This document shows, piece by piece, positions 5,280-37,115 of a stretch of DNA of 44,644 nt; position 1 is the stretch's first letter; every line of letters begins with the position of its first letter. Below the pieces are notes generated by a model. That model made no database searches. It was not told the DNA's origin and saw only the letters and a program-made list of their open reading frames with translations. Source of the DNA: Microcaldota archaeon (GTDB lineage Archaea > Micrarchaeota > Micrarchaeia > Anstonellales > Anstonellaceae); NCBI GenBank assembly GCA_021814005.1, contig JAKAJC010000008.1, positions 1 to 44,644 of the forward strand, written 5' to 3'. The position numbers and the translations under genes are program-made.

Positions 5280-5299
5280 TCATGCCAAACTACGCCGGT

Positions 5300-8200
5300 A
5301 TGGTGGTATTAGTGTTGTCTTCAATTCCCCGTCCCTTCGTGGGCACCTTAGCTTGCGTTTTTGCGCTCGTTCTCCTCGCTCTGGCCGGCTTGTCCAGCGC
5401 CTATGTCAACCTCAGCACCACGCCAACCAACAACATCACCGGCATGTTCGGTACGAGCGCCGTCTATCTTTCCAACTACCAGAATTCCTATGTCATCATC
5501 CAAATCAACACCACCGCCAGCGAAACCAACGCGAGCAAAAAAATCACCAACGTCACTCTGGTCAATCCATCCGGCTCATTCCTTTGCAATGAAGGGACGT
5601 ATGTCAGTTTTGTCAACACCAGCGCTGTTTCCAACAACTCAGTCATCAGCAACTGGACCGTCAACTGCACGGTCAATGCCACCAACGTTTCGAACGCCCG
5701 CTACCTGCTCAATATCACGGCCTTCAGCGCCAACCAGTCCAATGCGTCCGACGGCGTGGCCAACAACACCAGCCTTATCAACGACCCGACCATTGTCGTC
5801 GACAAAATCGGCCCCAGTTTCGCCGTGGCCGCCTTCTATACTCTTGACAATGCCACCTATCTGGGCGGCAACAGCCAAAACAGCAGCGCGTTCTTCTCAG
5901 TCTACTATGCCAACTCGACAGCCCAAAACAGCATCCTCAATCCGCGCATCAACATCACAGGTCTGAGCATGGGCAGCGGCGCCCCGGTCAACCTCACCAT
6001 CGGTTTCATCAACATGTCCTGCGGTTCGGGCAGCACCGGCAACTATACCTCTAATTCAGTCAATAATGCCTCCTTCTACAACGCCACCTGCAATGTTTCC
6101 GGCCTCATCAGTGCGGCCAACATCACCTATCCCACTCCGTTTACCATCAACATCAGCGTCACCGACAAGGCCGGCAACACCAACTGGACAACCCTCACCG
6201 CCCTTCTGCACAACCTCGGCACGGTGCAGGGTCCGCCGGCAAACGCCACCGGCCCCGGCGGCATTAACATAAGCCAGTGCGTCCGCGAAGGCAATCTTAC
6301 CACCAACATGAGCCGTATCATCAATTTCGGCGCCACCAATTTCGTGATGCAGATGCAAATGAATGGCTCCGTCGGCTGCTCCGCGTTGTTTGGCATGGAC
6401 CAAGCTGCCCCGTGGGGCAACATCTTCCAGACAGCTGGCATGGTCAATTTCACTCAAGTCAATATGAGCACTCAGGAGCAGGCCAACACCGTGATGTCGG
6501 CCATGGGCAATCTGGTGCGGATTGAAATCACTCCGCCGCACTCGTTCAGGCCATCGCGCATTTTCATCAACACCTCCGCCTCGGGCGCCAATGCCATCAA
6601 CACGTCCGCCTATGTGTCGTTCTACTACCTGCCCTTCACCTCGGTGCCCAACATAGCCTATGACGGCGGCGGAAACAACAGCGTTACCGTGAACTCCAGC
6701 ACCGTCTGGTATGACGCCGGCAATTTCACGTCTTTCATGAACCTCACCCTGCTGATCGGCAACTTCTCGGGTTACAACCTCTCCGACGTGACAGCCCCCA
6801 ACTTCACTCTTACCGCACCGGCCTCAACAGTCTACACCACAAACTCAACATGGATCAACCTCACAGTGAACGGCACAGGCTCTGACGTGCAGAACATCTC
6901 GTTCAGTTTCACCAACGTCAGCGGGTCTGCATACGGCTCGCCCTACTACTATGTCATGGCCACGAACGGAACCGTGACTCTCAACTCCTCCAACTGCACC
7001 AACATCTCCAACGGCTACGAAACACTCAGGTGCTACTTCCTCTTCACCGCCCCGGCCACCGGCAACTACACCATGACATACCGCATCTATGACTACGGCA
7101 ACAACACCAACAACAGCACCGTGACCTTCGCCCTCGGCGACGTGGTCCCGCCTGTCGTCACGCTGGTTTCCCCTGCAGACGGCAACATCACAACCTCCCA
7201 ATACATGCCATTCGTCTTCAACATGACCGACACCAACTTCAGCGCCAACTCGAGCTACACAAACAACACCTGCACCCTCTACATCAACGGCACGGCATAC
7301 GGCACCAACGCCACCCTCAACAGCTCAACCGCCGGCACGAACATCACCAACAACGCCTCATTGGCCAACGGAACCTATGTGTGGCTCATCGGCTGCACTG
7401 ACGGGGCCGGCAACTCGGCCAACTCGTCCAGCCGCACCCTTATCGTCGACAACAGCACGGGGCCCACCCTCTCAGTGAGCGTGCCGACCAACGGCAGCTT
7501 CTACAACCGCACCATCAGCTTCACCTACAACGTCACCAGCAGCAGCTTTAGGAACGTCACCATCTCGGCCATCAACTCGACCGGTTCCTATGTGAACAAC
7601 TTCACCAGCACCACTCCAGGTGTGGTGTCCACCACCATGAGTGTTCCGGCCGACGGCATCTACAATTTCAGCGTGACTGCCTTCGACAACCTCTCGCGGA
7701 ACGCCACCGTCAGCCTCTCCAATATCACGGCCGACGCGACCGCCCCGACCATTGCCTTCACCAACCCCAACTCCACGGTCATCTACACTCCGACAAATGC
7801 CACCTACAACAGCTCTGCAGTTTCGCTCAACTTCACGCCCAGCGACACCTATTCGGTCGCCAACTGCAGTTACAAGCTGGACAACAATGCCAGCTGGACC
7901 AGCGCATCCTGCGCCAACAACGTCCTCTCCAATATCAGCCTCATCTCCGCAGTCACCAATGTCACCGGCACTCACACGCTGCAGGTGAGAGTCAACGACA
8001 GCTCCGGCAACACCGCCTACGGGTCCATAATCTTCGTGGTTGACATTGCCACCACTCCAACCAGCGTAGTGGCCGGCGCCGGCAACTACAATATCACAAA
8101 CAACACCACCTGCGTGCTGCTCCCCTCCAGCCTTTCCAACGCAAACCTGAGCGTCAACAGCAGTGTGGCGGGTGATGGCACCGCCGGCATCAACCTTACG

Positions 8201-9142
8201 CAGAACAACGTCAGTTCGACAGCCACCAATGTAACCATCACAATCAGCGGCACGCTGAACGTCACCATCAACACCACTGGCAACGACTATGTGCTCGAAT
8301 TCCGCACCCCCAACACCAACATTACCGGCCCGCTGAGCTGGAGCGGCTCGCTCGAAATGCCGACAGTCAAGGCAGTCACGGTTGTTTCTCCGCCGACGGT
8401 CAGCGGCTACACCACTGCCGTGACTTCGGCCGTTGAAATCGGATTCCTGAGCGCAAGGCTCAACCTCAGCTCTCCGGCCCGCCTGCTCCTCATAGGACAG
8501 GGCACAGCAACGCACGTGGGCTGGTCGCTTAACGGCGGAACGCTGACAGAAATCACCGCCACCTGCACATCGGACGCGGCGGCAGGCCTTGGCTCCAACC
8601 ACGAATGCAAGATTGTGTCAGGCAGCGATTTGGCCGTCTGGACCGACCACTTCACTGTGTTTGCCGCCTACACGCAGACAGCCACCACAACTACAACCGC
8701 CTCGACAAGCTCCACGGGCGGCGGCTCATTCCCGCCCCGCCCAGGCACCACCTGCACGCCGGCATGGACCTGCGGCACCTGGGGCGCCTGCCAGAGCGAC
8801 GGCACGCAGACTCGCGCCTGCACAGACTCGAACTCTTGCGGCTTAACCAGCGGCAAGCCGGCCGAGATGCAGACCTGCGCCTACACCGCGCCAACAACCC
8901 CGCCAACCACTCCACCCACAACTCCGCCCACACCGCCCCCGGCAACTCCGCCCGCAACGCCGCCGGCCGCAAAGCCGTCAGCCCCGACCTTCCAGCTGCC
9001 GGCCGTGTCTTCGGCTGCCGCGCCGCTCAGTGACGGGTTGAGCGCCATCCTTCCCACCATCGCAGTGGCAGGCGTGATTGTGCTGATTGGCGCAGTCGCG
9101 TTCTTCCTGCTCAAGCCCGGCAAGCGCCACAAGGGGCTCTAA
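5300..9142 (+). CDS. Giant cell-surface glycoprotein with Ig-like repeats and TSP1-like domain
   Basis: This 1280-residue protein has an N-terminal signal sequence (VGTLACVFALVLLALAGLSSA). A very long Asn/Ser/Thr-rich ectodomain with dozens of N-x-S/T sequons follows. Repeated Ig-like modules appear, such as PVVTLVSPADGNITTS followed by a GCTDGAGNSANSS-type strand. Near residues 1152-1194 there is a Cys-rich thrombospondin type 1-like segment (TPAWTCGTWGACQSDGTQTR). A Pro/Thr stalk (TTPPTTPPTTPP) and a C-terminal membrane helix with basic tail (about 1250-1280) complete it. This suits a glycosylated S-layer-like or adhesin protein. It is divergent from the pilus operon, so both may be expressed on the same surface. 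Asn codons AAC dominate, giving a low-complexity composition. Confidence 0.85.
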   Translation: MVVLVLSSIPRPFVGTLACVFALVLLALAGLSSAYVNLSTTPTNNITGMFGTSAVYLSNYQNSYVIIQINTTASETNASKKITNVTLVNPSGSFLCNEGTYVSFVNTSAVSNNSVISNWTVNCTVNATNVSNARYLLNITAFSANQSNASDGVANNTSLINDPTIVVDKIGPSFAVAAFYTLDNATYLGGNSQNSSAFFSVYYANSTAQNSILNPRINITGLSMGSGAPVNLTIGFINMSCGSGSTGNYTSNSVNNASFYNATCNVSGLISAANITYPTPFTINISVTDKAGNTNWTTLTALLHNLGTVQGPPANATGPGGINISQCVREGNLTTNMSRIINFGATNFVMQMQMNGSVGCSALFGMDQAAPWGNIFQTAGMVNFTQVNMSTQEQANTVMSAMGNLVRIEITPPHSFRPSRIFINTSASGANAINTSAYVSFYYLPFTSVPNIAYDGGGNNSVTVNSSTVWYDAGNFTSFMNLTLLIGNFSGYNLSDVTAPNFTLTAPASTVYTTNSTWINLTVNGTGSDVQNISFSFTNVSGSAYGSPYYYVMATNGTVTLNSSNCTNISNGYETLRCYFLFTAPATGNYTMTYRIYDYGNNTNNSTVTFALGDVVPPVVTLVSPADGNITTSQYMPFVFNMTDTNFSANSSYTNNTCTLYINGTAYGTNATLNSSTAGTNITNNASLANGTYVWLIGCTDGAGNSANSSSRTLIVDNSTGPTLSVSVPTNGSFYNRTISFTYNVTSSSFRNVTISAINSTGSYVNNFTSTTPGVVSTTMSVPADGIYNFSVTAFDNLSRNATVSLSNITADATAPTIAFTNPNSTVIYTPTNATYNSSAVSLNFTPSDTYSVANCSYKLDNNASWTSASCANNVLSNISLISAVTNVTGTHTLQVRVNDSSGNTAYGSIIFVVDIATTPTSVVAGAGNYNITNNTTCVLLPSSLSNANLSVNSSVAGDGTAGINLTQNNVSSTATNVTITISGTLNVTINTTGNDYVLEFRTPNTNITGPLSWSGSLEMPTVKAVTVVSPPTVSGYTTAVTSAVEIGFLSARLNLSSPARLLLIGQGTATHVGWSLNGGTLTEITATCTSDAAAGLGSNHECKIVSGSDLAVWTDHFTVFAAYTQTATTTTTASTSSTGGGSFPPRPGTTCTPAWTCGTWGACQSDGTQTRACTDSNSCGLTSGKPAEMQTCAYTAPTTPPTTPPTTPPTPPPATPPATPPAAKPSAPTFQLPAVSSAAAPLSDGLSAILPTIAVAGVIVLIGAVAFFLLKPGKRHKGL

Positions 9143-24468: not shown

Positions 24469-26331
24469 ATGCTCTCAAAGAAAAAATACTCGGAATTGTC
24501 GATATACTCTCCAAAGATCAGCGCGCAGGATTACGCGCACGTCTTCGACCAGCTTATCCGCAAGCACGCCCCTCTCTTCGAATTCCTTGAATTCTCCCGT
24601 CTTTTCTCATTGCGGGGCGTGAGCCTTGTAATCAAGCGCTACAACAACACTGTCAAGATATTCACCGAAGATGCCGGAGGCATATACGCGCAGTCGGCGC
24701 TTCTCTTCCCTTTCAGGCTCAACGAGTCCAAGCAAGTCGAATTTATGCAAAGAAACGGCCCGTCATTCAAGATGAATTTCATATCCTCGAACAAGCTGTT
24801 CAATTTCCTGGTAAAGGAGGATGCGCACGAAATCCACCTGCGCATAGTGAAGTTTTTTGGAGCCTACTACGGATTCGGCACGTTTCTTGACAAGAACGGC
24901 AGGACGGGCCTGCTGATACTCTCGAAACCGAACAAATTCCTTGAAATCGATTTGGAAAACAACCCGCTTTTTTATGTCGAGCTTCTGGACCCGGTGCCAA
25001 AAATGATTTACCTCGACTCCAAGGAGCCCATTTTCAGCAAGGACGGCATAAACGTGGGCGTGGACAATTTCAGCCCTTTCCAGCACAGCCTCATAGTGGG
25101 CACATCCGGAACCGGCAAGAGCAAGCTTTTGGAGATGATGATAAAATCCATAAGCCGGAAATACCCGGACTCAAGAATTGTCGTAGTTGACCCGCATGGC
25201 GAGTTTTCAAAAACATTTCAGGGAGAGAAGGTAATCGACTTCATTGACAATTACGTCGAGCCTTTCGATGTCGGAAAAAGCAAGAGCCCCCTGATTGCGC
25301 AGTTGGTGGCTCAGCTCATCACCTCCACAATAGGGCAGGAGAGCCGGTATGCTGAGCGCGTGGTCTTCTACTCGGTCCATCTGCTCTCCTCGATAGACTC
25401 CCTCACAATGGAAAACATCAACCTGCTTCTCACAGATTCCTCAAAGCGCATGGAATTCACCGCCCAGTGCCAGAATGACGAGGTCAAGCGCTTCTTCGAC
25501 AAGGAGTTTCAGGACATCTACATGCACCACTTCAACGACGCCATCCTGCCGGTGACGAATTTCATAGGCGAATACCTCCTGTACCTGGGCGCCGGCCGCA
25601 AGCGCGAAGAGCTTGCCTCATTAATCTCGAAAAACAGGATAACCGTGATTTCATTCAACCCGCACCACTTCTCGCGCACCATAATCAAGTTCTTTGCAGG
25701 CGCGATAATCAACCAGATGTACATGCTTGCCATCGGTGAGAAACTCGACAAGCGCACCGTTCTCGTGGTGGACGAATTCCCCACCGTCGAATCAAAGGTT
25801 GTCAAGGACATTCTGGCGGAAACGCGCAAGTTCAACCTCTACATGTACGCCTCGGCGCAGTACTTGGGGCAGCTTTCAAAGCCTGTTCTTGACAGCCTGA
25901 TATCCAATGTGCGCAACGTGATATCGTTCAAGGTCACAAAAGAGGATGCGCGCCTGCTTTCCTCGATGATGGAAATCAAAGTCGAGGAATTTTTCAAAAA
26001 GGCGGTCAGCCCCTCCGAGCTTGAGGAATCAAAACGCGAGATGTTTGTCAAATTGCACACTCAGGAATGCATCATCCGCCTCTTTGAGGGGGAAAAATAC
26101 ATCCTGCCGATGAAAATGAAGACTGTGGACGTGGACAACTGGCGCAAGACCTGGGAGCCGACTTCCACCCGCCCGCCCATGAATCTCCCGCCAAAGCCGC
26201 CGTCCGCGCCTCCGCCGGCAAAGCCTCCGTCATCGCAAGCAGGGGGCAAGCCGGCCGGAACAGATGGCGGCGAAGACAAGAGAGCCCAGTATTTCAGCAG
26301 CCGCAAGCCCATGGTGTTCGGTTTAATCTAG
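24469..26331 (+). CDS. VirB4/HerA-like ATPase
   Basis: This 620-residue P-loop ATPase belongs to the FtsK/HerA/VirB4 group. Walker A is GTSGTGKS (211-218) and Walker B VLVVDEFP (Asp435, Glu436). It carries the DUF87-like VVVDPHGEFSK and the sensor-like YMYASAQYLGQLSKPVLDSL followed by ISNVRNVISFKV. Such proteins move DNA or protein, or energise secretion complexes. The N-terminal 200 residues show no family I know. The C-terminus has a proline-rich tail (PPKPPSAPPPAKPPSS) typical of flexible linkers. No membrane segment is visible. It opens the island and may be co-expressed with the radical SAM gene 246 nt on. Confidence 0.85.
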   Translation: MLSKKKYSELSIYSPKISAQDYAHVFDQLIRKHAPLFEFLEFSRLFSLRGVSLVIKRYNNTVKIFTEDAGGIYAQSALLFPFRLNESKQVEFMQRNGPSFKMNFISSNKLFNFLVKEDAHEIHLRIVKFFGAYYGFGTFLDKNGRTGLLILSKPNKFLEIDLENNPLFYVELLDPVPKMIYLDSKEPIFSKDGINVGVDNFSPFQHSLIVGTSGTGKSKLLEMMIKSISRKYPDSRIVVVDPHGEFSKTFQGEKVIDFIDNYVEPFDVGKSKSPLIAQLVAQLITSTIGQESRYAERVVFYSVHLLSSIDSLTMENINLLLTDSSKRMEFTAQCQNDEVKRFFDKEFQDIYMHHFNDAILPVTNFIGEYLLYLGAGRKREELASLISKNRITVISFNPHHFSRTIIKFFAGAIINQMYMLAIGEKLDKRTVLVVDEFPTVESKVVKDILAETRKFNLYMYASAQYLGQLSKPVLDSLISNVRNVISFKVTKEDARLLSSMMEIKVEEFFKKAVSPSELEESKREMFVKLHTQECIIRLFEGEKYILPMKMKTVDVDNWRKTWEPTSTRPPMNLPPKPPSAPPPAKPPSSQAGGKPAGTDGGEDKRAQYFSSRKPMVFGLI

Positions 26332-26576: not shown

Positions 26577-29500
26577 ATGGACACAAAACGGGGGCTAGAC
26601 TACATACACAGCTTTGCGCCAGCCTATCCGCCGGACCAGGTCCACCCCGCGCCGCATATCATCTCCGGCGCATTGAACGACTCGGGCTATTCTTCCGGCA
26701 TCATCTACTCCAACATCGAGGCAATGGATTACCTCATAAAAAAGAACGGCGGATACGAGCTTGTCGCGCGGATGCGCCAGCCTGTGCAAACCGTCTCAGA
26801 TTTCAGGGATTATGTAAAAGCAAAGCGCTCTATTCGGGCAATACTTGAGGCCGAGAGCGCGAAAAACGGCAACGAATATTTCTCCTATGTCCACAACCAG
26901 GTGTATTACAGAAGCAAATACGACACCAAATCAATCGAGGGCCTGGTGCAGGCGGCAAAAGACCCCGAGTCAAGCATTTTCTATGATTATATCCAGGAAA
27001 GCCTGATGCCTCGAATACTTGAGGACAAGCCGCTTCTGATTGGTTCCACGCTCACAAACAGCAAGCAGGCTGCATTTGCAATGGCCCTCGCGGGCATTGT
27101 TAACGCTCAATACAAAAGCGAGCTTCCTGACACCAAATTCGTTGTCGGAGGATTCCTTCCCACGGTCAACAAGGAGAATTTCATCTCATCAGTGCCTCTT
27201 AGCCAAGCATACTTGGATTTCTTCAACCTGATTCCGTATGTAATCCACAACGAGGGAGAGCAGGCAATTGTCGAGCTTATGGAGCACGTGAAAGGCAGGC
27301 GGGGCATCAGCGAAGTATCCCAGCTTATTTATTTGCAAGGAAACCGCGCAGTAGGCACAAGCCTCGATGCGAACGGGCTGATAATCCCAAGCAAAATGGG
27401 TTTTGACCGCCAAAACCGCAAGATAGATTTCCACTATTCCTATCCAAAAGAAATCGCCGACCTTCTCTACCTCCCGCAGGATTCAAAGGAGATAAGCCTG
27501 CTCATCGACCGCGGCTGCCCTTTCAGCTGCAACTGGTGCTCAATCGACAAGGGCTACAACGGCATGGCAATCCATGTGGACAACCTCAAGCGCAAAGCCA
27601 TGGGCCTGAAAGTGGTGGACGACTCGAGGATAATCCGCTTCTGCCGAATAGATGAAGTGGCGCGGGAGGTTGGCAAGATTGCGGCCCAAAACAAGATTGC
27701 GGTCATGAGCCTCTCGGACGAGCGCGCGGATGCGAAGAAGCTGTTGGAGCTCTCAGGCGCTCTCAAGGCCCAAGGGCTCAATCTCGCATCCTCCGCATAT
27801 TCCACAGTGGACATGGAATACCTTGACCCCGCAGTCTGCAAAAAGCTTTCAGAAAACGGCGTGAAATTCCTGCAGTTCGGAGTCGAGACCCTTTCCCGAA
27901 ATTCGCTCAAGGCAAGCAACAAGGGCCAGAACATACCTACCATCGACGCGCAGGGCAAAATATTCTCAAACTTGTTCAAGGCGGGAGTGATGCCCCATAT
28001 TTTCCTAATGATTCGCCTTCCAGCTCAGCGCAATTCCGACCTTCTTGCCTCATTGGCATTCATCGAAAAGAATTCGGAAAACATCCTCACAATCAAGCCC
28101 ACCATTTTCAAGGTGAGCAAAGGCAGCCGGGATTCGGTCTTGCCGGGGGAATCCGGCCTCAAGCTAAAAACCGGAACTTCCGGGGATTTTGGCGCAAACA
28201 TCCAGTACTCCCGCAGCAACGGGCTTATCAGCGGCAACCAGGCAGATGCCTGGAAAAACCTGCTTGACTCCTGGATTTCGCTATACCACATCTACAACCC
28301 AGTCACCCGCGAGCTTGGCCCAACAGAGAGGCTTGCAGCCGGCATGGACAACGTGGTTAAAATCGCCAGGGAATTGAAAAAAGACGGGGATTACGCCTAC
28401 CGCATCCTGGATTCCGCGCATGAGGAGCGCAACGGATACGCCCCAAAAGCCCTTCATGCGAATGCAATCCGCAATCTCAAGCGCGACATGGGCAGGGCGG
28501 TGCATGCCTGCATCGAGGAATTCTCGGACGAGGCATCCACGCCCGAGCTTGGGAAAAAGGGTTCGAAGCAGCGCGCGGAAGCCATCGCCAAGCTTGTGGC
28601 AGCAAGCATTCTCTCCGGCAATTTCGATACAACAAACGCATTGCTTAAGAAAAAATTCCAGAACAATTCCGAGCGCAGCAAGATTGTCAAAATGGCCGAA
28701 GCGCTTGTCCCGGCATCCGCACAATCGCTTACCGAAGAGAAGCGCATAATGCACGCATTCCCGCTTCTGGTGCAGTCCGGCGAATCGTTCCTCACCGAGA
28801 TGCAGAAAGAGCAGCCTGCCAAGAAGGAGAAGGGCCCCCTCCACCTGTTCGAGACTTTGGGCAAATACCGCACCAAGCTTGCAGTCGCAGCCTCATTCAT
28901 CGTCATGTCCACTCTGGGGGTAAACGTCGGGCTCAAGGCAAGGGAGCAGGAAAGGCAGGAAATGGTAAAGTCAATCAGCTCCTACATGGACAAGAATATC
29001 AAGAATGTGATGCCCACAATCGCAATCATGGACTATGTCCGTGGAAAGAACGATGTTGCGCTCAGCGACATGGGCTATGACGAAGTCAAGAAAATCAGCG
29101 AGTTCATCAGCCTTGACACAAACATGGCTTCCTGGGAAGAGAATAGATTCAGGCACGAATATGACCATGGTCCAACAGTCGGATATTGGAATTCAATGCA
29201 AACCTCCGATCTGCTCAAAGACTATGCCCAGATGAAGGAATACCGCTCAGAATTCCTCAAAAATGACAGCCTTGAGCGGATGGACTACGAGCTCAAGAAA
29301 GTCTATGGCGACATGGCAAAGTCTGACCAGTACATCGCCCGTTATGTGCATGCAACCGGGAAAAATCCCAATGAGCTCCCCCCAGAGAAACTGTCATTGG
29401 GCGACCTGTACAGGGTATCCGAAGTTTTCGACATGGACTGCGACAACATCATGCGCCAAGTCAACTACAACAAGCCAGCATTCAAGAATATGATAAATTC

Positions 29501-29804
29501 CACAAATGACTGGATGGTTGCCCACCGCTCCGATTTGGCGCAGCTAAAGGAATTTGTTGTAAAGCAGAACGAGCTGCTTGCCAAAGGGCATATCGTGGCG
29601 CAGCTCAACTCGCAAACTGCAATTTCGCAAAACAGCATCGACTCAAAGCAACTCTCAATTTCGCACAGCGAGGCATCGCTCCAAATCCAGAAATCTGCCC
29701 AAAAAACAAGAAACAAAATCGACTTGGCTGCAAACAACTCAAGCATTGCCTCAAAGCAGGCTCAATCCGGCCGGAATGCAAGAGCAAATATCTCCCGCGT
29801 GTAA
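26577..29804 (+). CDS. Radical SAM protein with membrane segment and C-terminal extension
   Basis: This 1075-residue protein contains the radical SAM cluster motif Cys314-x3-Cys318-x2-Cys321 (DRGCPFSCNWCSIDKGY), which binds a 4Fe-4S cluster and cleaves SAM. Before it, residues about 150-200 (PLLIGSTLTNSKQAAFAMAL and TKFVVGG) look like the Rossmann-type domain of B12-binding radical SAM enzymes, but I see no DxHxxG cobalamin motif. After it, GVKFLQFGVETLSRNSLKAS and MPHIFLMIRLP fit the barrel. From about 600 the protein is helical. A membrane helix lies near 768-788, then about 285 residues of unknown helical domain with a Ser/Gln-rich coiled tail. This extension is not usual for the family. 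The substrate is unknown. Confidence 0.8.
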   Translation: MDTKRGLDYIHSFAPAYPPDQVHPAPHIISGALNDSGYSSGIIYSNIEAMDYLIKKNGGYELVARMRQPVQTVSDFRDYVKAKRSIRAILEAESAKNGNEYFSYVHNQVYYRSKYDTKSIEGLVQAAKDPESSIFYDYIQESLMPRILEDKPLLIGSTLTNSKQAAFAMALAGIVNAQYKSELPDTKFVVGGFLPTVNKENFISSVPLSQAYLDFFNLIPYVIHNEGEQAIVELMEHVKGRRGISEVSQLIYLQGNRAVGTSLDANGLIIPSKMGFDRQNRKIDFHYSYPKEIADLLYLPQDSKEISLLIDRGCPFSCNWCSIDKGYNGMAIHVDNLKRKAMGLKVVDDSRIIRFCRIDEVAREVGKIAAQNKIAVMSLSDERADAKKLLELSGALKAQGLNLASSAYSTVDMEYLDPAVCKKLSENGVKFLQFGVETLSRNSLKASNKGQNIPTIDAQGKIFSNLFKAGVMPHIFLMIRLPAQRNSDLLASLAFIEKNSENILTIKPTIFKVSKGSRDSVLPGESGLKLKTGTSGDFGANIQYSRSNGLISGNQADAWKNLLDSWISLYHIYNPVTRELGPTERLAAGMDNVVKIARELKKDGDYAYRILDSAHEERNGYAPKALHANAIRNLKRDMGRAVHACIEEFSDEASTPELGKKGSKQRAEAIAKLVAASILSGNFDTTNALLKKKFQNNSERSKIVKMAEALVPASAQSLTEEKRIMHAFPLLVQSGESFLTEMQKEQPAKKEKGPLHLFETLGKYRTKLAVAASFIVMSTLGVNVGLKAREQERQEMVKSISSYMDKNIKNVMPTIAIMDYVRGKNDVALSDMGYDEVKKISEFISLDTNMASWEENRFRHEYDHGPTVGYWNSMQTSDLLKDYAQMKEYRSEFLKNDSLERMDYELKKVYGDMAKSDQYIARYVHATGKNPNELPPEKLSLGDLYRVSEVFDMDCDNIMRQVNYNKPAFKNMINSTNDWMVAHRSDLAQLKEFVVKQNELLAKGHIVAQLNSQTAISQNSIDSKQLSISHSEASLQIQKSAQKTRNKIDLAANNSSIASKQAQSGRNARANISRV

Positions 29805-29809
29805 TCCGC

Positions 29810-30793
29810 CTACTTAAATTCCGGCAGCGCTCCGGGGAACAAATCCAGCTTGTACTCCTTAACCTCAAGGCAGTGTTCATGGTTCAAAATGGCGTCCGGG
29901 AATTTCTCGTAAATGCTTGAGATTGCGGCATACATGCTCGCATCCTCCGCAGCGTCAAGGTCTATTTCAAAATCCCATGCGCCCAAAACCTTCTGCGGCC
30001 ACACCACGTTGGGCATTGCCCCGCAGAATTTGATGAATTTCTCCCTCTTCTCGCTGTCCATCGACTTCAAATAAAGAATAAGCTTGTTGAAGCTTCTTCC
30101 AAAAGCCCTCACATTTATGTGCGCCTTGTATGCAAGAATCACTTCGTCATCTTCCAACTGCTTCATCCTGTAAGCAACCTTTCTTGGGGTGGAGCCAATC
30201 GCCTTTGCTATCGTTTTCACAGGCGCGCGGGCATTGTTTGCAATCGCCCTCAAAATCTTCATGTCAAGCTCGTCCGCAGGCCTTGGCTTGTCCGTCAATG
30301 TATGATAAACAATGGATTTCGCCTCGCTCTCCACAACGCTTCCTCTTGGCTGGTGCGCAAGATACAAAGTCTGCGTCACCGCCCTCTCCAAAACAACTTC
30401 CGAGTATTTTTCCATGAATTTTTCAATCTCGTCAGCAAATTCAGACGGCGTGCGGATAAGGAAGGCCGCAATCACGTCCCACCTGCCTGCCGTGTGCGCC
30501 ACCCACTCGGTTTTCTTGTGCTCCTTGAAATAGCTGCAAATCTCGTCCACAAGCGCTGGCTTTGGCGCCTTCAGCCTCATGTAAAGCTTGTATTTGTAAA
30601 ATCCCAGCTTGAAGTAGTTTGTAATCGTATGATACCTGATTATGCATCCCGCCTTCTCAAGCCTTGAAATTCTGTAGCTCACGGCCTCAGGCGACATGTG
30701 CACAGCCTTTGCAATCGCCTTTAGGGGAATTCTTGCATTTTCCTCGAGCTTTCCGAGGATATCAAGGTCTTTTTTGGTTATCTTCTCAGGCAT
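29810..30793 (-). CDS. AsnC/Lrp-family transcriptional regulator with two tandem modules
   Basis: This 327-residue protein carries the Lrp plan twice. Helix-turn-helix 1 (TKKDLDILGKLEENARIPLK, then AIAKAVHMSPEAVSYRISRL) is followed by a RAM-like ligand domain. Near residue 180 a second helix-turn-helix (LDMKILRAIANNARAPVKTI, then AKAIGSTPRKVAYRMKQL) has its own RAM-like domain. Ordinary Lrp proteins are about 150 residues with one of each. It is divergent from the cysteine-rich array and convergent with the radical SAM gene, so it may control one or both. A TATA-like TTTATTAATTT lies 25 nt before the ATG and a palindrome overlaps it, which suggests autoregulation. Confidence 0.88.
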   Translation of the reverse strand: MPEKITKKDLDILGKLEENARIPLKAIAKAVHMSPEAVSYRISRLEKAGCIIRYHTITNYFKLGFYKYKLYMRLKAPKPALVDEICSYFKEHKKTEWVAHTAGRWDVIAAFLIRTPSEFADEIEKFMEKYSEVVLERAVTQTLYLAHQPRGSVVESEAKSIVYHTLTDKPRPADELDMKILRAIANNARAPVKTIAKAIGSTPRKVAYRMKQLEDDEVILAYKAHINVRAFGRSFNKLILYLKSMDSEKREKFIKFCGAMPNVVWPQKVLGAWDFEIDLDAAEDASMYAAISSIYEKFPDAILNHEHCLEVKEYKLDLFPGALPEFK

Positions 30794-30928: not shown

Positions 30929-32518
30929 ATGAGCGAACCTTATGATTCATTGGACAAGCGCTTTCGTGGCGCCTGCAAAGTGCTCTTTGGCAAGGATGTC
31001 GGGAGCCTCTCAAAGTACGAGCCATGGCTAATCGAGCACATCGAGCCTGTTTTCCACAAAAAATCCGCCCTTTCAGGCAAACCGGTCTCGTTTGCAATCC
31101 GAAACTTCAACCACAACGCGCGTTTCATCTCTTTTGACGAAATAGATTTCAACAAAAAAAATGCCCTTGACACCGAAAAAATCACTGGAATAAGCTCCAT
31201 CCTTTCGCAGATAAACGACCGGCTGTATTACTGCGGCAACATAATCTCGGGCCAGTCCGGGCAGATTGAGAAAAGCTCGAACATAGACTCAAGCTTCTAC
31301 ATGTCCAACTGCTCCCGTTTTTACGAATCAAAATACTGCGCATTTTGCAATTTCGGCGGCGTGGGCTCGGAGGACTGCTTTGGCTGCAACGGGCTTGGGG
31401 ACAGCGCATTATGCATCAAATGCCCTGAGACATACAACTACAAGCGCTGCTTCGAGCTTTGGTGGAGCCAGTCCTGCTCAGACTGCTACTATTCAATCGG
31501 GCTTAACAACTGCTCAGACTGCATGTTCTGCTTTCATCTCAAAAACAAGAGGCATTGCATCGGAAACGTTCAGCTCACCCCTGCCGAATGCAATGAGGCA
31601 AAGAAAAGGCTTCTCTCGCAGATGGCAGCCGAGCTTGAGAAGAACGGCAGGCTTCCGTCCCTCGTGGAGATTTCCAAAAACGCCAAGCTCGACCTTTCAG
31701 GCATCCAGCTTCCCCCAGACGATGCAAACGATGGCGAAAACATGGCGCCAATCCTCGAATCATTTAATCAGGCATCAAAGCTTGTGCTTGGAAAAGAGCT
31801 TTCCGGCGGGCTTTTAGCCTACGAGCAATGGCTGTTGCAAAAAAAGCGCGCAATCGAGAAATTCCCATCAGCATTAAGCAAAAAAACTGTTTACCGCGGC
31901 GATTACTGCAATGCAGCCCTTATGCCAAAGGACAGGCTTGTGAAGGCAAATGAGGCGTTCTTTCTTGCGGACAAGCTCAAGCTTTCGCATGAGGAGGCAG
32001 CAGCATCCAGCTTCGATAGCCTGAAGCATATCTTGGGCAAAATAGCATTCTTTTCCCCAGAATATTACGCAGGCACCCGCTCAAACATCATCCAATGCCC
32101 TCAGGCAATGGACGCATCCAACTGCTACAAGGCAATTGCAACCGTGTTTGCCAAGAACTGCGCAATCGGCATGTGGCCCCGCCATTCAGAGGCACTGTTC
32201 GGCTTTGATGCAGTCAAGAAAAGCTCGTTCTGCATAAACTGCTACGAGTCGGTGAACATCAAGAGATGCTTTGAGTGCGACAGCTGCACAAGCTCGTCCG
32301 ACTGCTATTTCTGCCACAATGCCGAAAACTGCGAGGAGTGCATGTTCTGCTTCAACGCAAAGGGCTTGCGTTATGCAATTGGCAACGTGCAGCTTCCAAA
32401 AGAGGAATACTTGAAAATAAAGAAGCTTGTTCTTGCCGAAATTGTTGCGAAATTAGAGAAAGACAAGAAGCTTGACTTGAGCATCTACAACCTAGGTGCA
32501 GGGCAGGCGGTTGATTAG
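30929..32518 (+). CDS. Cysteine-ladder repeat protein, fused N and C modules (array gene 1)
   Basis: This 529-residue protein consists of two homologous modules. Each begins with a helical head (ACKVLFGKDVGSLSKYEPWL; ASKLVLGKELSGGLLAYEQW). About nine 12-residue repeats follow, then a lysine-rich helical end after IGNVQLPKEEYLKIKKL. In the C module (from about 376) the repeats run FGFDAVKKSSFC, INCYESVNIKRC, FECDSCTSSSDC, YFCHNAENCEEC, with Cys at positions 3 and 12. The N module repeats start near 102, with one 13-residue unit. A Pro/Asp-rich linker joins them. No signal peptide or membrane helix, so cytosolic. Metal binding, a disulfide ladder or scaffold roles are all possible. The next gene starts 1 nt after the stop. 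Confidence 0.8.
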   Translation: MSEPYDSLDKRFRGACKVLFGKDVGSLSKYEPWLIEHIEPVFHKKSALSGKPVSFAIRNFNHNARFISFDEIDFNKKNALDTEKITGISSILSQINDRLYYCGNIISGQSGQIEKSSNIDSSFYMSNCSRFYESKYCAFCNFGGVGSEDCFGCNGLGDSALCIKCPETYNYKRCFELWWSQSCSDCYYSIGLNNCSDCMFCFHLKNKRHCIGNVQLTPAECNEAKKRLLSQMAAELEKNGRLPSLVEISKNAKLDLSGIQLPPDDANDGENMAPILESFNQASKLVLGKELSGGLLAYEQWLLQKKRAIEKFPSALSKKTVYRGDYCNAALMPKDRLVKANEAFFLADKLKLSHEEAAASSFDSLKHILGKIAFFSPEYYAGTRSNIIQCPQAMDASNCYKAIATVFAKNCAIGMWPRHSEALFGFDAVKKSSFCINCYESVNIKRCFECDSCTSSSDCYFCHNAENCEECMFCFNAKGLRYAIGNVQLPKEEYLKIKKLVLAEIVAKLEKDKKLDLSIYNLGAGQAVD

Positions 32519-32519
32519 G

Positions 32520-33269
32520 ATGGACATCAACGATGCATGGAAGGAGACCTGCAAGGTATTGCTGGGCGGAGAAATAGGCGATATGGCTCAGTATGAAAAA
32601 TATCTCTCAAGCCAGGTTGAGCCGATTTATCTGAAAAAATCAATCCTGTCCCAAGCCAATGTCGCGGTCTCAAACCCAAATTTCTGCAAAGGGGCAAGAT
32701 TCATGTCAAACAATGAGCAGGGGGAATACGCCAAGCGGGCAAGCAAGGCAAAACTCTCGATAAACGATGTAAAAGACATCGATTCCATCATTTCCGCAGT
32801 TTCTGAAAATTTCATCTATTCCGGAAACCACATCATCGGAAACAGCAGGGAAGTAAAAAACTCTGATTTGTGCGAAAGCTCATCCTATGTGCTCAATTCC
32901 TCAGAAGTGTATGAAAGCAAATACATTGCCTATTGCAACCTTAGCCGCAATGACGAATACATGTTCGGCTCAAATTTCTTAGGTGAGTCAAAATACTGCA
33001 TAAAATCGCATTACACCCACAAGCTTGTGCGAAGCATGGAAACGCTTAGGTGCTTTCTCTCAAGCGACTGCTATTATAGCGCAAACCTGGAGGGGTGCGC
33101 CAACTGCCTCTTCTCCTTCAACCAGCGAAACCGCAGCAACCTGATTGGAAATGCCCAGTTTTCGCAAGAAGAATACAACAAGCTCAAGGGAAACCTTGTC
33201 GCCCAGCTCAAGGACGAGCTGCAATCAAAGAAATCTTTGCCGATGATAATCGACATTTTGAGTGGTTAG
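32520..33269 (+). CDS. Cysteine-ladder repeat protein, N module alone (array gene 2)
   Basis: This 249-residue protein matches only the N module of array gene 1: head AWKETCKVLLGGEIGDMAQY, then 12-residue repeats from about residue 101 to 208 (LNSSEVYESKYI, AYCNLSRNDEYM, FGSNFLGESKYC, IKSHYTHKLVRS), then IGNAQFSQEEY. It has fewer cysteines than the fused N modules, with Ser, Leu or Met at many ladder positions. It ends SLPMIIDILSG. It is closer to array gene 5 than to its neighbours. Spacing of 1 nt on both sides indicates one transcript and coupled translation. Probably partners with the C-only protein encoded next. Confidence 0.8.
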   Translation: MDINDAWKETCKVLLGGEIGDMAQYEKYLSSQVEPIYLKKSILSQANVAVSNPNFCKGARFMSNNEQGEYAKRASKAKLSINDVKDIDSIISAVSENFIYSGNHIIGNSREVKNSDLCESSSYVLNSSEVYESKYIAYCNLSRNDEYMFGSNFLGESKYCIKSHYTHKLVRSMETLRCFLSSDCYYSANLEGCANCLFSFNQRNRSNLIGNAQFSQEEYNKLKGNLVAQLKDELQSKKSLPMIIDILSG

Positions 33270-33270
33270 C

Positions 33271-34032
33271 ATGGGAATTGAGATTGAAGATGCATTCAAA
33301 TCGACTTCCAAAATCATTTTCGGCAAAGAGCTTGCCGGAATCCAAAACTATGAAGCTTGGCTATTGGAGAATGTCAGGAAGAACTTTTCCCAAGAATCCG
33401 CATTGAGCGGCAAGACCATAATAGCCGCCAATGTGGTTGTGTTCGCAAACACCAAAAAAAGGATGGTTACTCTAACTGAGGCGCTTGAGGCTGGAAAAAA
33501 ACAATTGCCTCTTGCTGATGCCAAAAAGCTTGATGCCCACAACGCCTCCAAGCTTCTTGAGCCTATCAAATACTACGGCCCTGACGCGATAGTCGGGGAC
33601 AACATTGGGATGGAGGAATGTGCCCAATACGGCTATTCTCGTTATTGCTATCGCAGCTCCACAATTGCTTATGGAAAATATTGCGGCTATTGCTTCTGGC
33701 CAAGGGAAGCGGACCATACATTCGGCTGCGACACCGCAATCGCCTCGAAATTCTCAATGAAATGCTACAACTCAATCAACCTTTCCCGCTGCTTTGAGGT
33801 GAGCCATTCCACCGATTGCTCTGACTGCTACTTCTGCCACAACGTCGAAAATTGCCAGGAGTGCATGTTCTGCTTTAATGTGAAGGCAAAGAGATATGCC
33901 ATCGGAAACGTAGAATATCCGAAAGAGGAATATCTTCGCATCAAGAAGCTTGTTCTTGCGGAGATTGCGGCAAAGCTTGAGAAAAACAAGAAGCTTGAAT
34001 TAAGCATTTTCAACTTAGGGTGCAAAATATGA
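33271..34032 (+). CDS. Cysteine-ladder repeat protein, C module alone (array gene 3)
   Basis: This 253-residue protein is a single C module. The head is EDAFKSTSKIIFGKELAGIQ. Eight exact 12-residue repeats occupy residues 115-210: EECAQYGYSRYC, YRSSTIAYGKYC, GYCFWPREADHT, FGCDTAIASKFS, MKCYNSINLSRC, FEVSHSTDCSDC, YFCHNVENCQEC, MFCFNVKAKRYA. The conserved cap IGNVEYPKEEYLRIKKL and a charged helix follow. One further repeat-like segment precedes residue 115. The stop overlaps the next start as ATGA. Most similar to array gene 6, including the FEVSHS segment. Confidence 0.8.
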   Translation: MGIEIEDAFKSTSKIIFGKELAGIQNYEAWLLENVRKNFSQESALSGKTIIAANVVVFANTKKRMVTLTEALEAGKKQLPLADAKKLDAHNASKLLEPIKYYGPDAIVGDNIGMEECAQYGYSRYCYRSSTIAYGKYCGYCFWPREADHTFGCDTAIASKFSMKCYNSINLSRCFEVSHSTDCSDCYFCHNVENCQECMFCFNVKAKRYAIGNVEYPKEEYLRIKKLVLAEIAAKLEKNKKLELSIFNLGCKI

Positions 34033-35609
34033 GCGAGCCTGAGCAAACCCTTGAATCAAGATGGAAAAGCACGTGCAAGACCGTGCTTGGCGAGGAAATC
34101 GGCAGCTTAAGGCAGCATCTTGGCTCAATTTCATTGCACACAAACCCAATCATAATGAAGAAATCCTCAATCTCAGGCAAGCCTGTTTCCTATCTTCTGG
34201 ATTTCTATGCAAAAGACTCAAAATGGATTTCTCTTGATGAGATAAATTACGATTCACGTCCTGAAAAAATAGACCTAAGTGGAGCAAAAAGCCTGGAGTC
34301 CATTGCAAAGCTCACAAATGGCGTTGCCTACTATTGCGGTAATGTTGTAATCGGAAATTCAGGCAATGTTGCCGGAAGCTCCAACATAATGGATTGCCAC
34401 TATCTTCTCAACTGCACCCAAATAGGCAACTCAAAATACCTTGTGCATTGCACACTGGGCAGGGAATGCGAGGACTGCTTTGGCGGCAATGCGGTTGCCG
34501 AGAGCCGCTCATGCATCCGCTGCCACGAGACCACGCGCGATTCGCGCTCGTTCGAGCTTTGGATGAGCCAGTCCTGCTCTGACTGCTATTATTCATTTGG
34601 CCTGAGGAACTGCCAGGACTGCATCTTCTGCTTTAATCTTCGCAACAAGCGCTATTGCGTGGGAAACGTGCAGGTAAGCAAGGGCGAATACGAGACAATC
34701 AAGAAGAAAGTGATTAGCCAGGCAGTAAAGCAATTGAAGGAAAGCGGCAGCGCCCCATCCATGTTCGACCTGATTTCGAGGAGCTCAATGCAAAAGGAGG
34801 CTTTGCCGCAGATGCCGGCTGCGCCTGAGGAGAAAACCGACAAATCAGTTGTTGAGGAAGCGTTCAAGTCAACCTCAAAGATTTTGTTTGGTTTTCAATT
34901 GAGCGGCGGATTGGATACCTATTCATCATGGCTTGGGGCTTATATCCACCCGACCGAATTCCTAAACTCATGCCTCAGCGGCAGGCGCATCGCCCTTACC
35001 CATTACAGCAATTACAATATCCTTCCCCATGAGCGCATGGTGAGCCTTGAGGAGGCATATTTTTTGGGCGAGCGGCTCTCGTTGAGCAAAGAGGATGCTC
35101 TCTCACTTGATTTGAACAATGCGCACAAGAAAATCGGAAAGCTCGTGTATATTGCATCTGAATGGAGTGAAGGCAGCAAGTCCAATCTCACGGACTGCAA
35201 CATATACATAGACGCAGTGGACTGCTATCGCGTGGCGGGGGCAATCTACTCGAAAAAATGCGGCTATTGCTTCTGGCCAAAGTCATCAGAGAGCTGCTTT
35301 GGCTCAGACACTCTGTTCAGCTCGAGCTCCTGCATTCGGTGCTATTACTCCACAAAGCTTAGCAGATGCTTTGAGCTTGATTCCTGCAGCAACTGCTCAG
35401 ACTGCTATTTCTCGCACAACATAGAGAATTGCGCAGAATGCATGTTTTGCTTCAATGTGAAAGCCCTCAAATACGCGATTGGCAATGTGCAATATCCCAA
35501 GGAGGAGTATTTGCGGCTCAAGAAACTCATGCTTGGCGATATTTTCCAGAGGCTTGAGAAAGACAAGAAGCTTGATGTCAATATCTTCAATCTAGGGTGC
35601 AAGAAATGA
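34029..35609 (+). CDS. Cysteine-ladder repeat protein, fused N and C modules (array gene 4)
   Basis: This 526-residue protein repeats the layout of array gene 1 and opens the second three-gene unit. N module repeats from about residue 103 include VHCTLGRECEDC, FGGNAVAESRSC, IRCHETTRDSRS, FELWMSQSCSDC, YYSFGLRNCQDC and IFCFNLRNKRYC, capped by VGNVQVSKGEY. C module repeats include TDCNIYIDAVDC, GYCFWPKSSESC, FGSDTLFSSSSC, IRCYYSTKLSRC and FELDSCSNCSDC, capped by IGNVQYPKEEYLRLKKL. The Pro/Ala/Glu linker (PQMPAAPEEKTD) differs from that of gene 1. ATGA overlaps at both ends. Confidence 0.8.
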   Translation: MSEPEQTLESRWKSTCKTVLGEEIGSLRQHLGSISLHTNPIIMKKSSISGKPVSYLLDFYAKDSKWISLDEINYDSRPEKIDLSGAKSLESIAKLTNGVAYYCGNVVIGNSGNVAGSSNIMDCHYLLNCTQIGNSKYLVHCTLGRECEDCFGGNAVAESRSCIRCHETTRDSRSFELWMSQSCSDCYYSFGLRNCQDCIFCFNLRNKRYCVGNVQVSKGEYETIKKKVISQAVKQLKESGSAPSMFDLISRSSMQKEALPQMPAAPEEKTDKSVVEEAFKSTSKILFGFQLSGGLDTYSSWLGAYIHPTEFLNSCLSGRRIALTHYSNYNILPHERMVSLEEAYFLGERLSLSKEDALSLDLNNAHKKIGKLVYIASEWSEGSKSNLTDCNIYIDAVDCYRVAGAIYSKKCGYCFWPKSSESCFGSDTLFSSSSCIRCYYSTKLSRCFELDSCSNCSDCYFSHNIENCAECMFCFNVKALKYAIGNVQYPKEEYLRLKKLMLGDIFQRLEKDKKLDVNIFNLGCKK

Positions 35610-36355
35610 ACATCAACGAAGCATGGAAATCCACCTGCAGCATTCTGCTTGGCGGCGAGGTTGGCGAGCTCGAGGACTATGAGAAATACCTCACAAACTA
35701 TGTTGAGCCAATCTATGAGCGAAAGTCATTGCTTTCAGGAAAGAAAGTGACCGTGTCTTTGCCCTCATTCTCAAAATCAGCCAAATTCATTTCCAACGAG
35801 GAGCTTGAGGCATATAACAAGAAAATCTCCTCGTTCAAGCTTGATTTGAATCAAGTGAAAGATATTGACTCCATCCTTGATTCAATTTCCGAGCATTTCT
35901 GCTATTCCGGGAACCAGATAACCGGCAACAGCCAGGAGATTTTCGACTCAGACAATGTGATAGACTCCCAAGTGGTGTTCAAATCCTCTCAAATCTGGGG
36001 CGCGAAATTCATGGCATACTGCTCCATGTGCCGCTCATCCGAATTCATGTTCGGGGTGAATTGGGCAAGCACCTCGAAATACCTAATCAACTGCTATGAA
36101 ACCTATCAGGAGACGCGCTGCATGGAAACACTCAACGTCTGGTCTTCTTCAGACATCTATTACAGCGTAGGCATGGAAGGCTGCTCAGACTGCATCTTTT
36201 CTTTCAACCGCAAGAATTCAACACGTCTTATCGGCAATGCGCAATTCAGCAAGGAGAAATACTCTGATTACAAGGGCAGGCTCCTCTCGCAGATACGAGA
36301 CGAATTGAAGTCCAAGAAAAGCCTTCCATCAATAATCGACATTTTGGGTGCCTGA
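35606..36355 (+). CDS. Cysteine-ladder repeat protein, N module alone (array gene 5)
   Basis: This 249-residue single N module has the same length as array gene 2. The head is AWKSTCSILLGGEVGELEDY. Repeats read FKSSQIWGAKFM, AYCSMCRSSEFM, FGVNWASTSKYL, INCYETYQETRC, METLNVWSSSDI, YYSVGMEGCSDC and IFSFNRKNSTRL, with cap IGNAQFSKEKY and tail SLPSIIDILGA. Many ladder cysteines are replaced by Met, Leu or Ile, as in gene 2. The start overlaps the stop of gene 4 as ATGA. Confidence 0.8.
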   Translation: MNINEAWKSTCSILLGGEVGELEDYEKYLTNYVEPIYERKSLLSGKKVTVSLPSFSKSAKFISNEELEAYNKKISSFKLDLNQVKDIDSILDSISEHFCYSGNQITGNSQEIFDSDNVIDSQVVFKSSQIWGAKFMAYCSMCRSSEFMFGVNWASTSKYLINCYETYQETRCMETLNVWSSSDIYYSVGMEGCSDCIFSFNRKNSTRLIGNAQFSKEKYSDYKGRLLSQIRDELKSKKSLPSIIDILGA

Positions 36356-36356
36356 T

Positions 36357-37115
36357 ATGGGGAAAGCGATTGAGCAAGCATTTGAAGCCGCCACAAAGGT
36401 GGTATTGGGCAAAACCCTCTCTGGCTTGGAAAACTACGAGGATTGGCTGCAAACCAACCTGCGCCCAGCCAAAAAACACAAATCGGCGGTAAGCAGCCAG
36501 ATGGTTTACGACCCGCCACTCTCATTCTATGCCCCTGCAAGCAAAAGGGCTGTTAAACAATCTGAGGCGCTTGAGCTTGGCAAGCATTCACTGAGCGAAT
36601 CTGATGCTCTCAGCCTCAATCTTTCCAATGCAGCAAAGCTGCTTGAGCCATTGCGCCACCATACCTCGGATGCAATCACTGGGCAGAATGTCGAGGTTGA
36701 GGAATGCAGCCTTTACATCAACTCAAGCTACTGCTATCGGGCATGCTCATTTGTGAATTGCAAATTTTGCGCCTACTCATTCTGGCCACGTGATTCAGAA
36801 TACATGTTTGGCGTGGACACAGTGTTTTCCTCCAAATTCTGCATCAAATGCTATAATTCAGTAAACCTGACCCGCTGCGTTGAAGTGTCCCATTCCTCCA
36901 ACTGCTCTGACTCCTATTTCTGCCACAACTGCGATGCTTGCTCAGAGTGCATGTTTTGCACCAATGCAAAGGCATTGCGCTATGCGATATTCAACCATCA
37001 ATATCCAAAGGAGGAGTATCTCCGCATAAAGAAGCTTGTGCTTGAGGAAATCGCGCAGAAATTGGAGAAAAACAAGAAGCTGGAATTAAGCATTTTCAAC
37101 CTCTGCGGCAAATAA
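36357..37115 (+). CDS. Cysteine-ladder repeat protein, C module alone (array gene 6)
   Basis: This 252-residue single C module ends the array. Exact 12-residue repeats span residues 115-210, the same coordinates as in array gene 3: EECSLYINSSYC, YRACSFVNCKFC, AYSFWPRDSEYM, FGVDTVFSSKFC, IKCYNSVNLTRC, VEVSHSSNCSDS, YFCHNCDACSEC, MFCTNAKALRYA. The cap IFNHQYPKEEYLRIKKL is slightly divergent. The gene starts 1 nt after the stop of gene 5 and converges on the threonine dehydrogenase gene 59 nt away. Confidence 0.8.
   Translation: MGKAIEQAFEAATKVVLGKTLSGLENYEDWLQTNLRPAKKHKSAVSSQMVYDPPLSFYAPASKRAVKQSEALELGKHSLSESDALSLNLSNAAKLLEPLRHHTSDAITGQNVEVEECSLYINSSYCYRACSFVNCKFCAYSFWPRDSEYMFGVDTVFSSKFCIKCYNSVNLTRCVEVSHSSNCSDSYFCHNCDACSECMFCTNAKALRYAIFNHQYPKEEYLRIKKLVLEEIAQKLEKNKKLELSIFNLCGK

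Follow-up and report, generated by a model that had tools for sequence, protein, structure and literature searches.

HerA motors work with NurA or SIR2 as effector partners. In type VII secretion, ESX substrates leave the cell as dimers that are already folded, and the ATPase EccC is an evolutionary relative of VirD4 (PMC6986878), and the coil of beetle antifreeze protein spans 12 residues with the consensus TCTxSxNCxxAx (PMC8038014). The locus described here is a six-gene array of cysteine-rich solenoid proteins with an upstream motor ATPase, found in a 44,644-nucleotide stretch of DNA from a Microcaldota archaeon (contig JAKAJC010000008.1; the whole stretch is called the window below). The array belongs to a family of paired two-module proteins that is gained or lost together with one motor gene of the TrwB/HerA type. 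The combination of pair and motor is without a described counterpart: neither the module family nor the pair-plus-motor arrangement appears in the family libraries, structure libraries and literature searched. The motor is of a known superfamily, the coil geometry has a precedent in an insect protein of no relation, and a known translocation or defence scheme could, in some variant form, account for the mechanism.

Paired modules and their linked motor gene

Six open frames occupy positions 30929-37115, as the initial annotation had proposed, and form one tightly packed operon whose genes are spaced by 1-bp gaps or 4-bp ATGA overlaps. They encode the eight related modules that it had counted, in the order NC-N-C-NC-N-C. 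The features of the array and of its associated genes are as follows.

30929..32518, + strand: gene 1, fused N-C pair (modules 1N and 1C)
32520..33269, + strand: gene 2, single N module (2N)
33271..34032, + strand: gene 3, single C module (3C), partner of gene 2
34029..35609, + strand: gene 4, fused N-C pair (4N and 4C), the protein whose structure was predicted
35364..35462, + strand: invariant exposed patch of the C module of gene 4, from conservation across 113 proteins
35606..36355, + strand: gene 5, single N module (5N)
36357..37115, + strand: gene 6, single C module (6C), partner of gene 5
24469..26331, + strand: TrwB/VirD4- and HerA-like motor ATPase, from Pfam, Foldseek and co-occurrence with modules
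29810..30793, - strand: double Lrp/AsnC-type regulator (Pfam HTH_AsnC 8e-25, two copies)

Modules are about 250 residues long, and the four N and four C modules represent two paralogous types: identity within the window array is 34-54% between N modules, 44-55% between C modules and 24-31% between N and C. No module copies were found in the host genome (1.2 Mb) beyond these eight. Across 73 loci from the genome collection, 104 genes are fused N-C pairs and a further 38 pairs are split, always with N first; the only exceptions to this order are contig ends and one 91-residue fragment. One split pair (L043), which lies beyond the distance cut-off of the script, was counted by eye among the 38. 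Moreover, the divergence of N modules correlates with that of C modules (r = 0.61; Mantel, 0/500). The fixed N-first pairing and the correlated divergence are most simply explained by an obligate N:C heterodimer.

The module family is patchily distributed, being present in 53 of 301 Micrarchaeota genomes, and reaches its highest count in the 1.3-Mb genome G003, with 38 modules or 19 pairs. A profile search places the ATPase in 51 of 296 genomes, and 49 of the 51 also carry modules; the corresponding Fisher p of ~1e-48 overstates the evidence, because the genomes are related by descent. Within the four genera of mixed presence, ATPase and modules agree in 34 of 37 genomes (Fisher, 2e-7), a pattern that is hard to get by chance. 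The ATPase is usually single copy, and the several matches in a handful of genomes are mostly pieces of a split gene.

Neighbour clustering identifies the ATPase as a recurrent partner at 29 loci, and in most loci showing both it lies ≤150 bp from a module gene. The motor gene is usually adjacent to a main array, with further pairs elsewhere in the genome, some with their own regulator. In the window, 4.6 kb separate it from the array downstream, a span that holds a radical SAM gene as well as the Lrp gene. A single module directly follows the ATPase in G104 and G108, which may represent the simplest form. Divergent single-module proteins also occur whose genes overlap the ATPase gene or come right after it (L114, L115 and L118), with arrays of six to nine in G182/G183.

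The C-module tree contains many supported groups that mix species, so the paralogues are old. Hypervariable recent paralogues were considered and rejected, the groups in the tree being old and common to several species. Between the window and L007, gene 4 is 76% and the ATPase 75% identical, and the other modules 40-51%; the ratio of non-synonymous to synonymous substitution (dN/dS) is ~0.08 for gene 4 and ~0.12 for the ATPase, with dS near-saturated. Fragmented or stop-interrupted module copies at L071:8738-9010 and G001:C6:77101-77847 are instances of gene decay.

Two other origins were also rejected. GC content is lower in the array (0.45-0.49), and since that of third codon positions is only mildly so (0.55-0.63 versus ~0.63-0.79 in other genes), amino-acid make-up explains most of the difference, rather than a recent horizontal island. 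As for a viral, phage or plasmid origin of the modules, no related sequence was found in viral contigs, phages or plasmids.

Overall, the initial annotation had rightly seen the array, its solenoid and its lack of a known family; its metal ladder did not hold up, and it had missed the N:C pairing, the ATPase, the regulators and the multi-copy nature of the family.

The twelve-residue solenoid and its cysteines

Both the 12-residue period and the single 13-residue unit reported earlier are borne out. In every module the solenoid, the last 107 residues leading up to the GN motif, divides into 12-residue units, apart from one additional residue in the first N module. The repeat is built from a smaller unit of three residues; a coil comprises four of these, with four inward positions, one at every third residue. 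The cysteines had been assigned to coil positions 3 and 12 (9 and 12 in the present phase); these do form the recurrent CxxC and are the most frequent, but cysteines occupy all four inward positions.

The solenoid cysteines keep to one mod-3 register to a degree that is reached by none of 5000 shuffles for modules 1C, 3C, 4N, 4C and 6C, and by 7-20 of 5000 for 1N, 2N and 5N. Among 113 N-C proteins, 2069 of 2179 solenoid cysteines share a single register (N, 863/920; C, 1206/1259), and its positions are otherwise filled by Ser, Val, Leu, Ala, Ile or Thr. Small inward residues show autocorrelation peaks at 3, 6, 9 and 12, and aromatic residues a peak at 12 that is clear in N modules and weak in C modules.

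In a confident AlphaFold2 model of the two-module protein of gene 4, built with 113 sequences (predicted local distance difference test, 87.7; predicted template-modelling score, 0.89), short strands run all along the solenoids, and every module begins and ends with helices. For the opening coils of each solenoid, confidence falls to 66-76. Together with the mod-3 register, the model supports the regular solenoid with stacked inward columns that had been anticipated, and a module consists of a helical cap, a solenoid of 12 residues per coil and a conserved GN cap and helix.

No characterised family of this form emerged for the modules in Pfam, NCBIfam or the PDB, in agreement with the initial annotation. 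Foldseek of the model gave no significant PDB match (best E 0.87; template-modelling score normalised by query ≤ about 0.12) and nothing significant in a viral structure library. For the six proteins, no Pfam or NCBIfam match exceeds its cut-off, the only one being zf-CXXC at 18.6 bits versus a cut-off of 26.5.

What do the cysteines do? They had been read as a possible redox-active ladder or one that might hold metal ions or iron-sulfur clusters, and the recurrence of CxxC every 12 residues is compatible with this, as is the high conservation of a few cysteines at model positions 474 (97%), 195 (91%) and 456 (89%). However, relatives carry Ser, Ala, Val or Leu in nearly every cysteine column and few columns exceed 85% Cys, so that no invariant ligand set for a metal or an iron-sulfur cluster is found among these variable columns. 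Across the 113 proteins the number per module ranges from 3 to 19 (N, 3-18; C, 6-19), even and odd counts are balanced (55/58 and 56/57), and cysteines at lags of 3-12 residues show, on average, little tendency to occur together (phi from -0.13 to 0.15), with individual pairs as high as ~0.5. Because the number varies, shows no parity bias and comes with weak pair correlation, a metal or disulfide ladder is improbable. The cysteines are better accommodated as small residues packing the core than as disulfides, metal sites or clusters.

Conservation peaks outside the core, in the final coils of the C module. H463, N476 and K478 (gene 4 model numbering) are present in 113/113 proteins and E466 in 112/113, and this patch of exposed His, Asn, Glu and Lys residues before the GN motif also includes R446, E449, D451 and N464. 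The N module has no equivalent of the C-module His. The patch is a putative docking, binding or active site.

Motor, regulators and possible mechanisms

The ATPase has the P-loop motor fold and the TrwB/DUF87 domain that characterise type IV coupling proteins (T4CP) and HerA. In sequence and in fold it comes closest to TrwB/VirD4 and HerA: Pfam matches are to TrwB_AAD_bind (3.6e-12) and DUF87 (2.9e-11), and Foldseek matches to TrwB (3e-12) and HerA (5e-12), whereas the protein scores far below every curated NCBIfam cut-off.

We tentatively favour a mechanism in which this motor would act on folded N:C heterodimers in a type VII-like manner. One N and one C module would pair as an obligate heterodimer, the conserved C-module patch would serve as the docking or active site, and for the motor the folded heterodimers would be exchangeable substrates or adaptors, most likely to be moved, or to have their bound cargo moved, across the single membrane. 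Different pairs would be expressed under different local regulators. The model for such handling would be type VII secretion, in which a single FtsK/VirD4-family ATPase serves a large set of WXG100 or PE-PPE substrates that come in pairs of strict order. That the whole constitutes an undescribed secretion or delivery system of Micrarchaeota, with one motor, many interchangeable Cys-packed solenoid heterodimers that each have their own regulator, and distant relatives in candidate-phyla bacteria, is possible but doubtful.

Shared descent aside, several points weigh against this mechanism. Two near-complete genomes (G014 and G064) carry the ATPase without detectable modules, and there it may have a role independent of them or be a remnant; four genomes carry modules without the ATPase. 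Neighbour clustering reveals no membrane channel, pilin or VirB-like gene recurring beside the ATPase, in which no obvious transmembrane helix can be seen by eye. With type VII secretion only the gene logic is shared, and no EccD-like gene recurs among the ATPase and module neighbours, although no search was aimed at EccB/D homologues. Export of the pairs is hypothetical.

Some further observations concern these and other ATPases. The ATPase frame is intact at the two loci of G014 and G064 (L170 and L171). In G227, a genome without the linked ATPase, a lone module has a VirB4/TraC-like ATPase nearby (L172:1681-3438), of another kind than the window ATPase. Elsewhere in the host genome of the window, a VirB4-like ATPase is preceded by a PrgI/VirB3-like membrane protein (G000:C2:140018-141568; L161), and is perhaps part of an integrated conjugative element.

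Since no membrane part is known, two soluble schemes stay strong rivals, a HerA-like role in DNA processing or defence and cytosolic recognition. In the former, a hexameric DNA translocase motor would use the solenoid heterodimers as effectors or DNA-mimic adaptors. The best PADLOC match of the ATPase is mad8 (1.3e-17), with several HerA models besides, SIR2-HerA and HerA-NurA are among its fold matches as well as HerA itself, and motor and modules are patchily and jointly gained or lost. Yet known HerA defence units do not look like this, with a single motor for as many as 19 diversified paralogous pairs that have separate regulators; neither a nuclease nor a NADase domain was found, and the modules have no PADLOC match. 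We consider this scheme rather unlikely.

The regulators bear on the other rival, in which different pairs would bind different ligands through a variable solenoid surface and sense or sort them with regulator and motor, as a scaffold and with no export. In the window, the Lrp/AsnC gene stands head-to-head with gene 1 of the array. Across the loci, the recurrent regulator neighbours are of the double Lrp/AsnC (20 loci), HTH_10 (9 loci) and TrmB (7 loci) types, and a regulator lies directly upstream of 20/84 module clusters versus 27/772 of the other genes that these loci hold (odds ratio 8.6, p 9e-10). Cytosolic recognition would suit this enrichment, the old paralogue groups common to several species and the lack of a signal peptide that the initial annotation had pointed out (reading the six sequences by eye shows neither a signal peptide nor a hydrophobic N terminus; no predictor was run on them). 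On the other hand, it leaves the near-strict link to a translocase-type motor unexplained, and regulators adjoin only about a quarter of the clusters, and it too appears unlikely.

If the motor does move pairs, as in the mechanism that we favour, small archaea would have a new way to act on their surroundings or hosts. Genomes of roughly 1 Mb spend up to 38 module copies (19 pairs) on a family that is absent from the family libraries searched, and with the strict pairing rule and the linked motor, what was a list of hypothetical proteins becomes a system that can be put to the test.

Two other window genes deserve mention. Between the ATPase and the array, positions 26577-29804 encode a 1075-residue radical SAM protein with a weak B12-binding match; its best NCBIfam matches, far below cut-off, are methyltransferases for phosphinates and for ribosomally synthesized and post-translationally modified peptides (RiPPs), and it is not recurrent at other loci. 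Positions 5282-9142 encode a 1286-residue Thr/Asn-rich protein, probably a surface protein, that has a hydrophobic segment at its N terminus and a membrane helix at its C terminus and adjoins small proteins with pilin-like N termini.

Comparison with known systems

The initial annotation had likened the end motif of the array to cysteine-rich proteins of candidate-phyla bacteria, and this proved a true lead. A consensus of that family, taken only as a lead, was used as bait and retrieved a real 556-residue protein in G062 at 54% identity (L141:559-2226), which belongs to an undescribed Cys-solenoid family often mislabelled CaiB/BaiF. The homology test used only the retrieved protein, not the bait. 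In hhalign, the N-C profile aligned with it over both solenoids and both end caps (97.6%, E 5e-12, score 95.5), versus scores of 43.7 for the best of 60 Cys-fixed shuffles and 23.8 for the reversed sequence. The contig that carries the protein (L173; G062:C14:1-12000) has bacterial-looking genes, such as SLH-like repeats and a pseudouridine synthase, in a Micrarchaeota bin, and is probably a stray bacterial contig placed there by a binning error.

Both families have two tandem Cys-rich solenoids, each ending in an N/K-x-Y-x-I/L-x-N cap, and an SGK segment that precedes the solenoid. In the bacterial family the full ending reads (N/K)KxYxI/LxNxxxxK(E/D)E(Y/F) and usually occurs twice per protein, and the array proteins match this form in that both modules and both caps align. 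The bacterial protein carries further CxxC segments, resembling zinc ribbons, at either end and was not seen next to the ATPase, whereas the Micrarchaeota modules have helical caps, the N:C split and arrays. The N-terminal zinc-ribbon CxxC pairs are absent from the six window proteins, and only the SGK segment that follows them aligns. If the motor moves the pairs, these bacterial relatives would carry the question over to candidate-phyla bacteria.

In the Tenebrio/Dorcus antifreeze proteins too, a coil has 12 residues and four inward positions at a spacing of three (PMC8038014), with Cys and Ser inside. By this likeness the modules might be ice-binding or otherwise surface-stacking solenoids. 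This is very improbable, however, as no Thr column exists among the module coil positions and thus no TxT face or ladder, no signal peptide is visible, the conserved patch is non-repetitive and a motor is the partner. In addition, the beetle protein is short, secreted and disulfide-bonded with a Thr ladder, whereas cysteines in the modules are exchangeable.

The window ATPase has the P-loop fold and the TrwB_AAD_bind/DUF87 domains in common with TrwB/VirD4 coupling proteins, HerA and CedD. It differs from them in its distinct N-terminal β-rich domain and in having no obvious membrane helix, and it is found with solenoid arrays rather than with a type IV secretion system or NurA; neither a co-encoded VirB or relaxase gene, as for a T4CP, nor NurA, as for HerA, recurs in its neighbourhoods. 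Type VII secretion (EsxA/EsxB and PE/PPE with EccC) resembles the Micrarchaeota system in its fixed-order gene pairs, its many paralogous pairs and its one VirD4-related ATPase. The substrates themselves are unrelated in sequence or fold, the WXG100 proteins being helical hairpins and the modules solenoids.
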